This document shows positions 616 to 62,343 of a stretch of 64,000 bases of DNA, piece by piece. The stretch is from an uncultured Spiribacter sp. Its GTDB lineage: Bacteria > Pseudomonadota > Gammaproteobacteria > Nitrococcales > Nitrococcaceae. The stretch's first letter is position 1. The number at the start of each line of letters is the position of its first letter. The DNA is taken from contig CALGDM010000021.1 of assembly GCA_937884605.1 (NCBI GenBank), positions 1-64,000 on the forward strand. Direction: 5' to 3'. A program made the position numbers and the translations under genes. The notes beneath the pieces are model-generated. The model saw only the letters and a list, made by a program, of their open reading frames with translations, did no database searches and was not told where the DNA came from.

Positions 616-4925
<4,310 letters not shown>

Positions 4926-20785: not shown

Positions 20786-22189
<1,404 letters not shown>

Positions 22190-22201
22190 GGGAGGGCCGC
22201 T

Positions 22202-22630
22202 ATGGGCATTACCATGCATATCGACATCGTAAGCGCCGAGGAGTCGATCCACTCCGGCGCCGCCACCTTCATCGTGGCGCGCTCGGTGGGGGGCGAGGTG
22301 GGCATCTATCCCCGCCACGTGCCCATGCTCCTGCAGCTGAAGCCGGGCGAAGTGACGGTGCGTGACGAGTTTGGCGAGGAGCAGTTCTACTATGTCTCGG
22401 GGGGCACCATGGAAGTGCAGCCCGACGTGGTCACGGTGCTCGCCGATGCCGCGACCCGCGCCCACGACATCGACGAAGCCGCCGCGGAGCAGGCCCGCAA
22501 GCGGGCCGAAGAGGCCCTTGCCAATCGCACCAGCGAGGTGGATTACGCCCGCGCCCAGGCCGAACTGGTCGAGGCCGCGGCCCAGCTGCGAACCGTGCAA
22601 AAGATCCGCAAGGCCGCCAACCGGACCTGA
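22202..22630 (+). CDS. atpC: ATP synthase F1 subunit epsilon
   Basis: A 142-residue subunit that binds gamma and can inhibit ATP hydrolysis. It has an N-terminal beta sandwich (DIVSAEESIHSGAATFIVAR) and a C-terminal helical pair rich in Ala, Arg and Glu. A second ATG four codons in is an alternative start. It is the last gene of the atp operon; no terminator-like hairpin with a T-run separates it from glmU. Confidence 0.95.
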   Translation: MGITMHIDIVSAEESIHSGAATFIVARSVGGEVGIYPRHVPMLLQLKPGEVTVRDEFGEEQFYYVSGGTMEVQPDVVTVLADAATRAHDIDEAAAEQARKRAEEALANRTSEVDYARAQAELVEAAAQLRTVQKIRKAANRT

Positions 22631-37988: not shown

Positions 37989-40718
37989 ATGAGTGACCCC
38001 GACAAGCGCCTGCTGCTGGTGGACGGTTCGTCCTACCTCTACCGCGCCTATCACGCCCTGCCGCCCCTGACCAACGCCTCCGGCGAGCCCACCGGCGCGG
38101 TCTATGGCGTGATCAGCATGCTGCGCCGGCTGATCGATGATTATCGACCGGTGCACATGGGCGTGGTCTTCGACGCGCCGGGCAAGACCTTTCGTGATGA
38201 GCTGTTCGCTGAGTACAAGGCCAACCGTCCGCCCATGCCCGACGACCTGGCCGCCCAGCTCGAGCCCCTCAAGGCGGTGGTACGGGCCATGGGCCTGCCG
38301 CTGATCGAGGTCAGCGGTGTCGAGGCGGATGACGTGATCGGCACGCTGGCGGTGCGTGGCCGGGACGAGGGTCTGACACTGCTCATCTCCACTGGCGACA
38401 AGGACATGGCGCAGCTGGTCAACGGCGGGGTCACGCTGCTCAACACCATGTCCAACACCCTGCTCGATCGCGACGGCGTCATCGACAAGTTCGGTGTGCC
38501 GCCCGAGCAGATCATCGACTATCTGGCCCTGGTGGGGGATACCTCGGACAACATCCCCGGTGTCCCCAAAGTGGGGCCCAAGACCGCCGCCAAATGGCTG
38601 ACCCAGTACCAGTCCATCGACGGGATCCGCGAGCACGCCGGGCAGATCGGCGGCAAGGTGGGCGAAAGCCTGCGCGCGCACCTCGACGAGCTGGATCTCT
38701 CGCGGCAGCTGGCGACGATTCACTGCGACGTCGACCTACCGCTGGCCCCGCTCGCCATCCGGCTGGCAAGCCCCGATCGCGACGAACTGGCCCGCCGCTA
38801 CCGCCACCTTGGGTTCAACACCTGGCTGCGCGAGGTCGAGGCCAACGGCGACGCCGACGCCGACGACCCGCCGGCGACGGTCACCCAGCATGACCCGGCC
38901 GACCCGCAGGCGAGCTATGAATGCATTCAGGACGAGGACCGCCTTGGCGAGTGGATCGAGCGGCTGGCGGCGGCGCCGTGCTTTGCCCTGGATCTTGAAA
39001 CCGACAGCCTCGATTACATGCGCGCGCGCATCGTCGGCGTGTCGTTTGCGGTGACCGCCGGCGAGGCGGCCTACCTGCCGCTGGCGCATACCGGGCCGGA
39101 TCAGCCCCGACAGCTGGACCGCGATGCCAGTCTGGCGCGGCTCAAGCCGCTGCTCGAGGACCCCGACGCCGGCAAGCTGGGGCAGAACCTCAAATACGAC
39201 ATGAGCGTGCTGGCCAATCACGGCATTACCCTGCGCGGCGTGGTCCACGACACCATGCTCGAGTCGTATTGCCTGGACGCCACGGCGGCCCGCCACGACA
39301 TGGACTCGCTGGCGCAGAAGTATCTCAACTATCGGCCCATTGGCTACGAGGCGGTCGCCGGCAAGGGCGCCCGGCAGATCAGCTTTGATCAGGTCGGTCT
39401 GGATCAGGCGGTGGACTATGCCGCCGAAGACGCCGACATCAGCCTGCGCCTGCATGAGTCGCTGTGGCCGTCGCTGGCCGAGCGCAGTGGCCCGCGATCG
39501 GTGTACGAGACCATCGAGCTGCCGCTGCTGCCGGTGCTCTCGCGCATCGAGCGCACCGGCGTGCGCGTGGATGCGGGGCTGCTGGCCACCCAGAGCCGCG
39601 AGCTGGCCGAGACCATGCAGCAGCTCGAGTCGCAGGCCCACGAAGCCGCCGGCGGCCCCTTCAACCTGGGCTCGCCCAAACAGATCCAGGAAATCCTCTA
39701 CGAGCGCCAGGGCCTGCCGGTGCTGGCCAAAACCCCCAAGGGCGCGCCCTCCACCGCCGAGTCGGTGCTCGAAGCCCTCGCCGCCCAGGGCCATGACCTG
39801 CCGCGCATGATCCTCGATTATCGCGGTGTCTCGAAGCTGCGCTCCACCTATACCGAAAAGCTGCCGGGGCTGATCAATCCCGAGACCGGACGGGTGCACA
39901 CCTCGTACCACCAGGCGGTGGCCGCCACCGGGCGGCTGTCGTCGTCGGATCCCAACCTGCAGAACATCCCCATCCGCACGCCCGAGGGTCGGCGCATTCG
40001 CCGCGCGTTTGTGCCCACGCCGGGCTATCGGCTGATGGCGGCGGACTACTCGCAGGTCGAGCTGCGCATCATGGCGCATCTGTCCGGCGACGATGGACTG
40101 CGCCGGGCCTTTGCCGAAGGGCTGGACATTCATGCCGCCACCGCCGCCGAGGTGTTCGGTGGCAAGGCCGCGGCGGTCAGCGACGATCAGCGCCGTGCGG
40201 CCAAGGCCATCAACTTTGGCCTGATCTACGGGATGTCGGCCTGGGGGCTTGCCCGCCAGCTGGGCATCGAGCGCGGCGAGGCACAGAGCTATGTCGATCG
40301 CTATTTCGAGCGCTATCCCGGAGTCCGCGCCTTCATGGACGAGACCCGCGCCCGGGCCCACGAGCAGGGCTATGTCGAGACCGTCTACGGCCGCCGCCTC
40401 TATCTGCCCGAGATCAACAGCCGCAACAATCAGCGCCGCCAGTATGCCGAGCGCACCGCCATCAATGCCCCCATGCAGGGGACGGCCGCCGACATCATCA
40501 AGCGGGCCATGATTGTGGTGGATGACTGGATCACCGGCGAGCAGCCCGATGCGACCCTTGTCATGCAGGTCCACGACGAGCTGGTGCTGGAGGTGCCGGC
40601 GGGCGAGGAGGCCGCCATCGGCGAGCGGATCCGCGGTTTCATGGCCGATGCGGCGGATCTCGATGTGGCGCTGGAAGTGGAAGTCGGTGTCGGTGACGAT
40701 TGGGATACCGCGCACTGA
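37989..40718 (+). CDS. polA: DNA polymerase I
   Basis: A 909-residue three-domain polymerase. The N-terminal 5'-3' exonuclease starts LLLVDGSSYLYRAYHALPPL. The 3'-5' proofreading domain has all motifs: DLETDS (ExoI), NLKYD (ExoII) and YAAED (ExoIII), so proofreading should be active. The polymerase domain has DYSQVELRIMAHLS (motif A), RRAAKAINFGLIYG (O-helix) and QVHDELVLEV (motif C). It fills gaps in repair and replaces Okazaki primers. Downstream lie a probable sRNA and a strong terminator. Confidence 0.98.
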   Translation: MSDPDKRLLLVDGSSYLYRAYHALPPLTNASGEPTGAVYGVISMLRRLIDDYRPVHMGVVFDAPGKTFRDELFAEYKANRPPMPDDLAAQLEPLKAVVRAMGLPLIEVSGVEADDVIGTLAVRGRDEGLTLLISTGDKDMAQLVNGGVTLLNTMSNTLLDRDGVIDKFGVPPEQIIDYLALVGDTSDNIPGVPKVGPKTAAKWLTQYQSIDGIREHAGQIGGKVGESLRAHLDELDLSRQLATIHCDVDLPLAPLAIRLASPDRDELARRYRHLGFNTWLREVEANGDADADDPPATVTQHDPADPQASYECIQDEDRLGEWIERLAAAPCFALDLETDSLDYMRARIVGVSFAVTAGEAAYLPLAHTGPDQPRQLDRDASLARLKPLLEDPDAGKLGQNLKYDMSVLANHGITLRGVVHDTMLESYCLDATAARHDMDSLAQKYLNYRPIGYEAVAGKGARQISFDQVGLDQAVDYAAEDADISLRLHESLWPSLAERSGPRSVYETIELPLLPVLSRIERTGVRVDAGLLATQSRELAETMQQLESQAHEAAGGPFNLGSPKQIQEILYERQGLPVLAKTPKGAPSTAESVLEALAAQGHDLPRMILDYRGVSKLRSTYTEKLPGLINPETGRVHTSYHQAVAATGRLSSSDPNLQNIPIRTPEGRRIRRAFVPTPGYRLMAADYSQVELRIMAHLSGDDGLRRAFAEGLDIHAATAAEVFGGKAAAVSDDQRRAAKAINFGLIYGMSAWGLARQLGIERGEAQSYVDRYFERYPGVRAFMDETRARAHEQGYVETVYGRRLYLPEINSRNNQRRQYAERTAINAPMQGTAADIIKRAMIVVDDWITGEQPDATLVMQVHDELVLEVPAGEEAAIGERIRGFMADAADLDVALEVEVGVGDDWDTAH

Positions 40719-40744
40719 ACTTCGCCGCGACCGGCGCTGTCATT
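40717..40744 (+). promoter_or_regulatory. Candidate sigmaE/AlgU-type promoter at the polA stop
   Basis: GAACTT at 40717-40722, overlapping the polA TGA, is followed after 16 bp by GTCATT at 40739-40744. The first element matches the envelope-stress sigmaE/AlgU -35 exactly; the second matches the -10 (GTCTGA/GTCTAA type) only partly. It would start an RNA near 40751. Confidence 0.45.
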
Positions 40745-40750
40745 ACAGGT

Positions 40751-40878
40751 GCGTCAGTGCCCGGCGCGGCCCGCGACTCCCTCCCTTGAGCGCGGGTCAG
40801 TCTGATCCGGCCGTTTCCCCCCTATGGCCGGGTCAAACGTCCCCGGTATCCATCCCCCCCTGGATACCGGGGTTTTTT
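40751..40878 (+). ncRNA. Candidate small RNA downstream of polA (Spot 42/ErsA locus)
   Basis: The polA-engB gap, where enterobacteria carry Spot 42 and Pseudomonas carries ErsA, can fold into three consecutive hairpins. Stem 1 is CCCGCG 40770-40775 with CGCGGG 40791-40796. Stem 2 is 40804-40812 with 40826-40834 (9 bp including one G-U). Stem 3 is the terminator at 40841-40872. All three loops are C-rich and unpaired (ACTCCCTCCCTTGAG, GTTTCCCCCCTAT, TCCCCCCC), suited to pair with G-rich ribosome sites. The predicted length is about 128 nt. No sequence identity to Spot 42 or ErsA is claimed. Confidence 0.6.
40841..40878 (+). terminator. Rho-independent terminator after polA / sRNA
   Basis: A perfect 12-bp stem, CCCCGGTATCCA (40841-40852) with TGGATACCGGGG (40861-40872), encloses an 8-nt C-rich loop and is followed by six T at 40873-40878. 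It is the clearest intrinsic terminator in the window. The T-run touches the stop codon of the convergent engB. Confidence 0.95.
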
Positions 40879-41482
40879 ATGTCTGCAACCAGTGATCGAG
40901 CTGCTCGCGGGCGGCGTCCACGCCATTGCGCGTCTGTGCCGAAAACAACTGGACGGTCGCCATTTCGCAATGCTCGCCGGCATCGCGCCGGACTGCCTGC
41001 AGGGTGTTGCCCGCCGCGCCCCGGCGCAGCTTGTCGGCCTTGCTGAGCAGGATATGCACCGGCAGTTCGGCGGCATCGCACCAGGCCAGCATCTGCTGAT
41101 CGAGCGGGCCCAGCGGGTGACGGATATCCATGATCAGCACCAGGCCGCGCAGGCTCTCGCGGCCTTCCAGATACTGCGGCAGCACCTGCTGCCAATGGCT
41201 GCGGACCGAGGGCGGCGCCTTGGCATAACCATAGCCGGGCAGATCCATGAGCCGGGTTGCGGCAACATCCCCGGTCAGCGGGAAGACGTTGATCTGCTGG
41301 GTCCGCCCGGGGGTCTTGCTGACCCGGGCGAGCTGCTTCTGGTCGGTGATGGCATTGAGCGCGCTGGATTTGCCGGCATTCGAGCGGCCGGCGAATGCCA
41401 CCTCGGCCCCCTGATCAGGGGGCAGCTGCTCGAGCTCTGCGGCGGACAGAAGGAATTGCGCACGGCGGTAATCTAGTGTCAT
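40877..41482 (-). CDS. engB: Ribosome biogenesis GTP-binding protein EngB (YihA/YsxC)
   Basis: A 201-residue GTPase needed for late 50S assembly. G1 is [15 protein letters not shown]3 DLPGYGYA, G4 SKADKL; the conserved K-TPGRTQ segment ([13 protein letters not shown]) is present. The ATG at 41482 gives the normal N-terminus; a TTG four codons upstream is less likely. It converges on polA and lies next to the candidate sRNA, the same arrangement as in E. coli and Pseudomonas. Confidence 0.95.
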
Positions 41483-41504
41483 TGTCTCAACCAAGACCGC
41501 TGAA

Positions 41505-41562: not shown

Positions 41563-42201
41563 ATGATCGTTAAGTTGTTATCCGCGCTTGCCGCGCTGTG
41601 CCTTATGAGCGGGGCGGCCCAGGCCCAGCTCGAAAACGCCGACCCGAAACGTGGCGAAGCTGCTTCGGCCACCTGCGTCGCCTGCCATGGTGCCCAGGGC
41701 AACAGCGTTGTGCCCAACTACCCCAACCTGGCCGGGCAGCACGCGGACTACATTTACGAGCACCTGCAGTTCTACAAGTCCGGCGAGCGCGAGAACGCCA
41801 TCATGCTGGGCCAGGCGGCCGGTCTGGACAAGCAGACCATGGCTGATCTGGCGGTGTATTTCTCCGAGCTCGATGCCGAGCTGGGCGAGACCCCCGAGGA
41901 GTTGCTCAGCACCGGGCGCAGCATCTACATGGGCGGCATTGCCGAGAAGGGTGTGCCGGCCTGTGTCAGCTGCCACGGCCCCGGTGGCATGGGCGTGCCC
42001 AGCAGCGGCTACCCGCGGCTGAGTGGCCAGAAGGTGCAGTACACCGTCGAACAGCTGGGGCTGTACCAGTCGGGCAAGCGCTCCGGCTATGGGCAGGCCG
42101 GGATGATGAACGACATCGCCTCGAAGCTTGACGACGAAGAGATTCAGGCCGTTGCCAACTATGTGCGCGGCCTCTACCCAACGGATATTGCAGCCGAATA
42201 G
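41563..42201 (+). CDS. Diheme cytochrome c4
   Basis: A 212-residue periplasmic protein with a signal peptide (LLSALAALCLMSGAAQAQ) and two class I cytochrome c domains, each with a heme-binding CxxCH: CVACH in the first half and CVSCH in the second. Methionine ligands are expected in the IMLGQA/MMNDIA regions. Cytochrome c4 passes electrons to terminal oxidases. It lies upstream of resB-ccsA, the machinery that attaches its hemes, a conserved pairing. Confidence 0.93.
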   Translation: MIVKLLSALAALCLMSGAAQAQLENADPKRGEAASATCVACHGAQGNSVVPNYPNLAGQHADYIYEHLQFYKSGERENAIMLGQAAGLDKQTMADLAVYFSELDAELGETPEELLSTGRSIYMGGIAEKGVPACVSCHGPGGMGVPSSGYPRLSGQKVQYTVEQLGLYQSGKRSGYGQAGMMNDIASKLDDEEIQAVANYVRGLYPTDIAAE

Positions 42202-61545: not shown

Positions 61546-62136
61546 CTAACAGACATGGACGGCGCGATCGGTGACCACTCGGTCGAGGCGCTGATCCCAC
61601 CGGTCATGGGGAATGGCGGGCCGCTGCTGGACGGCATGGGCCAGGCCCACGCGCAGCGGGCGACGCCCTCGCCCGCGTCCCGCCAGGGTGCGGTCGTAGA
61701 AGCCGCCGCCCATGCCCAGCCGATGACCGGCGCCATCAAACCCCACCAGCGGCATGATCAGCAGATCGAGCCCCGCCAGGGGCTGCCGCGGCGCGCCGGC
61801 GGCGACTGGCACCAGCAGGCCAAAGCGGCCCCGGCGCAGCGGCGCCCCCGGCGTGTAGCGACGGAACACCAGATCGCCGGTGTGCCGGCGGATCACCGGC
61901 AGATAGACGCGCTTGCCGGCCCGAAGCGCGGCATGAATGAGCGGGCGGGTGTCGATTTCGCCATCGGTGGGCAGATAGACCGCCACATGCCGGGCGCGGC
62001 CCCAGGCGGCGAGTTGTTTCACCCGGCGGGCGGCCTGGGTGGCGGCGTGGCGCGCCGGCCGGCCGCGGATGCGGCGGCGTCGGGCCCGCAGCGCGCGGCG
62101 CAGGTCCGACTTGGTGTCAGGGTGGGCCCCCATCAT
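61546..62136 (-). CDS. fau: 5-formyltetrahydrofolate cyclo-ligase
   Basis: A 196-residue enzyme (YgfA) that converts 5-formyl-THF to methenyl-THF using ATP. It shows the N-terminal basic helix (LRRALRARRRRIRG), VAVYLPTDGEIDTRPL, and the ATP-binding GHRLGMGGGFYDRTL. The tandem ATG at 62136/62133 is the natural start, since the upstream open frame runs through 6S RNA. No Shine-Dalgarno is near; AAGGG is about 17 bases upstream. The start lies inside the predicted 3' arm of 6S RNA. Confidence 0.92.
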   Translation of the reverse strand: MMGAHPDTKSDLRRALRARRRRIRGRPARHAATQAARRVKQLAAWGRARHVAVYLPTDGEIDTRPLIHAALRAGKRVYLPVIRRHTGDLVFRRYTPGAPLRRGRFGLLVPVAAGAPRQPLAGLDLLIMPLVGFDGAGHRLGMGGGFYDRTLAGRGRGRRPLRVGLAHAVQQRPAIPHDRWDQRLDRVVTDRAVHVC

Positions 62137-62280
62137 GCCGTTCGGGCAACGCCCTTGAACCCTTTGGTTCAGGTCGGGGAGGTCGAATGACGTCTTAGGC
62201 TTTCCGCACGCGGCGGACCTGCACACCAACGGCATTACGCCACCTCCCCTGAGGCGCATGATTGTAGGGTCAAGAATGCA
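62118..62280 (-). ncRNA. ssrS: 6S RNA
   Basis: Between zapA and fau, the standard gammaproteobacterial locus, the minus strand carries the 6S core. The hairpin CCTGAACCAAAGGGTTCAAG (62173-62154) matches E. coli CCUUGAACCAAGGGUUCAAG. GTTGGTGTGCAGGTCCG and GGAAAGCCT line up with E. coli GGUUGGUGAGC...GGUCCG and GAAGCCU. The terminal stem and 3' bubble are clear. The closing stem is probably ATCATGC (62262-62256) with GCATGAT (62138-62132). Both ends are approximate. It mimics an open promoter and binds sigma70-RNA polymerase. Confidence 0.82.
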
Positions 62281-62343
62281 AAAGCCCGGTGTCGAACACG
62301 ACAGGAACCCGCCACGCAGTCTGCCTACCGGACCGGCCTGCGT

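Follow-up and report, generated by a model that had tools for sequence, protein, structure and literature searches.

The first 64,000 nucleotides (nt) of contig CALGDM010000021.1 from an uncultured Spiribacter sp. (assembly GCA_937884605.1; hereafter, the window) carry, between polA and engB, a gene for a small RNA (sRNA) of about 128 nt that is the Spiribacter member of a widespread group of sRNAs with C-rich loops at the polA/engB locus, most of them with an RpoE-type promoter. This gene has a predicted structure with covariation, is conserved, keeps its position, is preceded by a promoter element, and shares its genome with genes for RpoE and Hfq. We consider it probable that the gene encodes a trans-acting sRNA of the polA/engB group that includes sX13 and ErsA, that it is transcribed by RpoE, and that its loops repress mRNAs.

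Structure and independence of the sRNA gene

The gene occupies positions 40751 to 40878 of the forward strand, its 5′ end being placed by inference. The predicted fold of 40751–40880 reaches −72.3 kcal/mol, compared with a mean of −45.58 for shuffled sequences (z −7.57, with 0 of 200 shuffles as good), and the reverse strand of 40719–40880 also beats its shuffles, less strongly (z −3.94). There is no long unpaired region in this fold. The 5′-terminal hairpin, H0 (40751–40767; GCGUC-AGUGCCC-GGCGC), is the most conserved element, with five of five pairs formed in 35/35 sequences. It is followed by H1 (40768–40798), whose loop contains CUCCCUCCC, by H2 (40803–40835), with UUUCCCCCC in its loop, and by H3, with the loop UCCCCCCC, which together with six T residues makes up an intrinsic terminator (40841–40878; 12-pair stem at 40841–40872, T6 at 40873–40878). 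A scan of 40500–41100 found no other intrinsic terminator (shuffle mean 0.4) and no sigma-70-type promoter.

Conservation was followed in the flanks downstream of polA at 50 loci including the window, drawn from 56 polA places (G044, G049, G036, G055, G056 and G057 were left out). An sRNA with the H0 motif is recognisable in 35 of these flanks, and a covariance model built from the order only, R1, adds 3 of the other 15, bringing the count to 38 of 50. R1 gives the window RNA 106.3 bits by construction, as this copy was in its training set. The alignment of the 35 sequences has 24 invariant columns. Across its 29 predicted pairs, 94.9% of cells are paired, versus 83.7% in shuffles, and changes on both sides are seen in 22 pairs, versus 12.6 in shuffles, a control that ignores relatedness. 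If the structure is slid by one column, pairing falls to 45–47%, a comparison in which the tested structure is favoured because it is the alignment's own consensus. Taken by hairpin, cells are paired in 94.6% of cases in H1, 95.4% in H2 and 92.3% in H3, with both-sided changes in 7/8, 6/6 and 8/10 pairs, respectively. In H0, four of the five pairs never vary, and the fifth shows a both-sided change in one sequence; thus, covariation supports mainly H1 to H3. The C-runs of the loops stay conserved while the stems vary. Fold and covariation together confirm the three stems with C-rich loops, an arrangement shared with sX13.

An exact search for the H0–H1 pattern in named genomes returned 18 stretches, 16 of which are strong R1 matches (87–126 bits) from Spiribacter, Nitrococcus, Aquisalimonas, Methylonatrum, Ectothiorhodospiraceae and another gammaproteobacterium. 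The two Paraburkholderia stretches gave an R1 score of 20 bits in one case and no R1 match in the other. One metagenome-assembled genome (G003) has two polA contigs (L006 and L032) with the sRNA on each, and is perhaps a mixed bin.

These results bear out much of the first-pass annotation, which had read a probable sRNA gene from three consecutive stem-loops with C-rich loops, a 12-bp terminator with T6 and a GAACTT-N16-GTCATT pair at the polA stop. It had missed H0, the best conserved part of the RNA, at the expected 5′ end, and its expectation of little primary sequence conservation does not agree with the 24 invariant columns.

The window RNA immediately follows polA on the strand of that gene, starting 33 nt after the polA stop codon (40716–40718); a location downstream of polA is shared with sX13. 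The same orientation is found in 23 of 34 order loci, window included (a 35th, L034, has a polA stub too short for a match and stands outside the count), and in 68 of the 72 R1 loci of the class with polA in the flank. Such an arrangement could be expected if there were nothing here but the 3′ untranslated region of polA and a terminator, or an sRNA cut from the polA mRNA, in either case without a promoter of its own. We regard this explanation as very improbable and reject the untranslated region as the whole account, since the RNA and polA run in opposite directions in 11/34 order loci and 4/72 class loci. In addition, the promoter element described below keeps its distance to the RNA in the order loci, inverted copies included, and Aquisalimonas lutea has, besides its polA–engB copy (L169), an extra copy (L171, 2995–3103) next to an Asp-Al_Ex permease gene, in an 8-kb stretch where neither polA nor engB was matched.

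Regarding the neighbouring genes, polA (DNA polymerase I) spans 37989–40718 on the forward strand (Pfam DNA_pol_A, 524.7 bits), and the convergent gene at 40877–41494 on the minus strand (Pfam MMR_HSR1, 64.8 bits) encodes a GTPase that we take, from its place and family, to be engB/yihA. Its stop codon, at 40877, overlaps the final two T of the sRNA terminator. After engB comes a cytochrome c gene (41563–42201), which is neighboured by a ResB gene. Elsewhere in the window, a 6S RNA at 62123–62310 of the minus strand (83.5 bits) is the sole Rfam match at cut-off.

The promoter element and RpoE

A promoter-like element of the RpoE or extracytoplasmic function (ECF) type, with an equivalent in the order loci, lies at 40717–40744 of the forward strand and overlaps the polA stop codon; it consists of GAACTT (40717–40722), a 16-nt spacer and GTCATT (40739–40744). 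We sought the motif GAAC-N17-19-TC within 78 bases around the sRNA start, with shuffles and a region farther upstream as controls. The motif is present in 34/35 order loci, window included (1.7 in shuffles, 2/35 in the upstream control), always at −30 to −32 from the start of the match. Across the class, it is found in 68/92 loci beside polA or engB (shuffles 4.2, upstream control 7/92), at scattered positions that are mostly between −30 and −34, and in 9/15 loci away from these genes (shuffles 0.5, control 0/15), one of the 16 non-adjacent matches having been dropped from this count for its short upstream sequence.

A candidate reader of this element is widely available. RpoE (TIGR02939) scores over the cut-off in 13/13 genomes tried, all of which also have an hfq gene, and eight genomes of the same genus have one RpoE-type match each and no second, which leaves one obvious sigma factor to read an ECF-type promoter in them. 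The window's genome has GAACTT-N15-GTCATT ahead of rpoE, with the same two hexamers as the sRNA promoter, and the strict motif occurs upstream of rpoE in 7/8 loci (400 bases scanned, without a shuffle control). RpoE is established to read its own promoter in E. coli, and we assume the same here. Judged by sequence, position and conservation, the element is a predicted RpoE/AlgU-type promoter, in agreement with that of ErsA. Thus, the envelope-stress (sigmaE) type of promoter suggested in the first-pass annotation gains support from the order loci and from the region upstream of rpoE.

Distribution in Gammaproteobacteria and relation to named sRNAs

At E 0.01, R1 matches 107 of 369 gammaproteobacterial genomes. 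Neighbourhoods were taken for 108 R1 loci from 105 of them (G000 and G015, known at polA, were omitted), and the fetched flank contains polA in 72 cases (68 of them within 1000 bases), engB in 78 and at least one of the two in 92. Three loci kept among the 108 (L155, L160 and L161) look, by eye, like chance matches in coding sequence. For the 16 loci with neither gene, four (L116, L122, L149 and L154) match the cytochrome c of the window and three of these also its ResB; in the other 12, none of the four neighbours was found. A second model, R2, built from 116 matches, reaches 204/369 genomes of the class. Among 20 of the best places matched by R2 only (in two cases the genome has an R1 match elsewhere; G262 and G279 were passed over), polA or engB is nearby in 16 and the promoter motif is present in 15; two of the four remaining places have cytochrome c. 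Since location is no part of either model, the polA/engB neighbourhood provides independent support. The window RNA fits the group through its model match, which holds by construction, and through polA and engB as neighbours, and the description of this RNA as lineage-specific in the first-pass annotation must be rejected given the spread of R1 and its concentration at polA/engB (92/108 loci).

Outside the class, R2 matches nine genomes at E 0.001. The eight loci fetched (L272–L279, that of G458 not among them) have polA or engB in 0/8 and the promoter motif in 0/8; thus, these eight loci, from genomes not checked for being Alphaproteobacteria, offered no connection to the alpha-r7 RNAs described in the paper on sX13.

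Copy number and neighbourhood vary. Searched at the DNA level, the window's own genome yields a single copy, and R2 gives a second, weak match there with E between 0.001 and 0.01. Several copies stand close together at the polA/engB locus in L123 (four, 3052–3802) and L153 (four, 2161–3082), and two each in L076, L081, L093, L104, L112, L127 and L139; G223 and G330, which belong to one genus, have four copies each. In another genus (L107, L109 and L151), a copy has an rlmL-like gene as its neighbour (put to Pfam in L109) and a further copy adjoins engB. At L122, L149, L154 and L215, engB is not adjacent, and the sRNA is flanked by cytochrome c and ResB genes with, by eye, a nuclease-like gene opposite. 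In two genomes of one family, a cspA thermoregulator lies shortly upstream of the sRNA (L069, 1011–1444; L070, 957–1397).

No Rfam family matches the window RNA at cut-off, nor did the RNA of the order receive a name at cut-off in the five loci tried (L002, L021, L027, L037 and L042). In a loose-threshold search, all matches of which are below the family cut-offs, the best by E-value is sX13 (RF02232; 37.8 bits against a cut-off of 50, E 6.6e-6), which spans the full length of the RNA (40756–40879) and had been overlooked in the first-pass annotation. Anti-hemB (RF02837; 26.8 bits against 49.5, E 2.0e-4), 6C (38.3 bits, E 8.9e-4, covering H2 and H3 only), ErsA or Pseudomon-1 (RF01719; 27.8 bits against 50, E 1.1e-3) and Scr3202 (E 2.0e-3) follow.

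The models reach the named families from the other side. When 40 of the 108 R1 loci were put to Rfam at cut-off, two were sX13 (L078 and L084, with 124.5 and 103.2 bits), seven had anti-hemB at the match and 31 had no Rfam name. In a phylum sample, R2 matched seven genomes of one family (f164), all of them ErsA by Rfam (107–136 bits), placed between polA and engB in 7/7 cases and with the promoter motif in 7/7. Another member of that family, G214, had no R2 match at E 0.001 in the phylum sample and scored 30.3 bits in a search confined to its locus, and further unmatched members may be among 244 genomes not listed. The R2 training set held no member of this family, and it included the two sX13 loci and six anti-hemB-type loci (L060, L063, L065, L072, L081 and L096), so that retrieval is independent only for ErsA and for newly fetched anti-hemB loci such as L281. 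The Rfam ErsA model matches 13/369 genomes of the class, one of them over the cut-off, and 8 of the 12 weak matches coincide with R1 matches.

Likenesses and differences are spread over the three families. Like the window RNA, sX13 of Xanthomonadaceae lies downstream of polA and has three C-loop stems, a terminator and, in the predicted fold of L078, a 5′ hairpin, although L084 lacks the promoter motif and L078 has only a loose form of it. The 2013 paper on sX13 describes its 5′ region as unstructured and calls the RNA exclusive to Xanthomonadaceae (PMC3771888). ErsA of Pseudomonas shares the polA–engB site, the GAAC-type promoter and C-rich loops in its last two hairpins, terminator included; unlike the window RNA, its 5′ half is weakly folded and most of its H1 pairing is disrupted in the model alignment. 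Anti-hemB of Burkholderia has a C-rich H1 loop, a terminator and, in the fold of L281, a short 5′ hairpin, but it is shorter, and the L281 copy lacks a C-run in its terminator loop and has a fold with a z of −1.40. In that locus, the anti-hemB RNA (2488–2585) lies between hemB and engB; the name may thus reflect position rather than function. The portion of PMC5688073 that we consulted gives only the name anti-hemB.

Spot 42 of Enterobacteria is an Hfq-dependent regulator of carbon use that acts via unpaired A/U-rich regions. It sits between polA and yihA, the same gap as the window RNA, an hfq gene is present here, and the best R2 match in 3 kb of E. coli falls on Spot 42 itself, at 13.3 bits (E 0.026, in 6 kb). 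Orthology would nevertheless have to accommodate an RNA with no Rfam Spot 42 (RF00021) match up to E 10, no long unpaired region and an ECF-type promoter, and it seems to us highly unlikely that the window RNA is a Spot 42 ortholog; we reject orthology as a strong claim on an R2 score of this size, and homology to Spot 42 is unproven. Of the positional family that the first-pass annotation had invoked, the resemblance to ErsA stands, and Spot 42 belongs by position only. A comparison that bears on the mechanism of Spot 42 is given in PMC3771888.

Three Rfam families from different lineages appear to belong to one group that shares an address, a loop chemistry and, in most of the loci considered, a promoter type. 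There is perhaps an even chance that a single RpoE-controlled C-loop sRNA at the gammaproteobacterial polA/engB locus was the ancestor of sX13, ErsA, anti-hemB and the window RNA, with Spot 42 possibly derived from it after loss of the sigmaE promoter. In the open-access papers searched, which include few subscription journals and preprints, we found no class-wide group behind the three Rfam names and no paper treating both sX13 and ErsA; the parts consulted of PMC9788540 and PMC8632094 contain nothing on the polA–engB locus.

Proposed function and significance

The mechanism that we propose is as follows. The sRNA would be a transcription unit of its own, read by RpoE (sigmaE) from the promoter GAACTT-N16-GTCATT with a start at about 40750 and released at the intrinsic terminator at about 40878. 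The resulting RNA would be almost wholly double-stranded, with a 5′-terminal hairpin, H0, that may shield the 5′ end against decay, and three stems that each expose a C-rich loop. When the envelope is stressed, these loops might base-pair with G-rich sequences at Shine-Dalgarno sites or early in coding regions, and the translation of several mRNAs would be blocked. According to PMC3771888, sX13 represses G-rich targets via C-rich loops, its activity is Hfq-independent and its levels are raised by high salt, a temperature of 37 °C and minimal medium, and PMC5819304 reports that ErsA is driven by sigma22, that it represses algC and that it raises amrZ independently of Hfq. With loops like those of sX13 and ErsA and a promoter of the ErsA type, the best reading of the window RNA is therefore that, in response to envelope stress, it represses or modulates translation starts rich in G.

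A search for targets by sequence pattern was unproductive. In seven genomes, G-rich sites before ATG number 26 (two overlapping at one site) compared with 8 for the reversed pattern, an excess that ordinary Shine-Dalgarno sites alone would also be expected to produce. The ortholog pairs that recur, judged by eye from translations, are ppc, a cfa-like gene and atpC. For atpC, a sequence with which the H1 loop could pair, AGGGAGGG, lies at 22189–22204 of the window, ahead of an atpC-like gene (22202–22630, by eye); among the seven genomes searched, only G013 has a AGGGAGGG-type site at the atpC ortholog.

Could the C-rich loops bind a protein instead of mRNA, making the RNA a sponge or decoy? 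Conserved C-runs on changing stems would suit such a role, and two genomes of one genus with four neighbouring copies (L123 and L153) would suit titration. Known CsrA sponges use GGA loops. The loops here are C-rich, unlike those of CsrA sponges, and sX13 loop mutants alter target mRNA levels (PMC3771888), which makes a sponge or decoy unlikely.

Several observations weigh against a repressor sRNA under RpoE control. The pattern search of seven genomes found no conserved target; only three ortholog pairs recur and none is common to all. The promoter motif is absent from 24/92 class loci, including the sX13 locus L084, and 12 of the 50 polA flanks examined have no match, 7 of them in one family (f5) for which the sequence considered reached only about 900 bases beyond polA. 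The structure of H0 appears to be backed by sequence conservation more than by covariation, the predicted folds of one ErsA and one anti-hemB sequence are barely more stable than those of shuffles (z −0.99 and −1.40), and the E-values of home-made models such as R1 and R2 are rough. Lastly, we infer transcription, control by RpoE, a stabilising role of H0, loop pairing and targets from the sequence.

The finding links small RNAs that were previously named separately. If sX13, ErsA, anti-hemB and the window RNA do share one ancestor, a single conserved address in the class houses a common envelope-stress sRNA that has mostly escaped annotation, with R2 matching 204 of the 369 genomes. The question receives an answer in sequence for the whole class and becomes testable in harmless halophiles, in which one RpoE-type match per genome was found, and the RNA described here would be a candidate sRNA arm for RpoE regulons beyond those of Enterobacteria and Pseudomonas.

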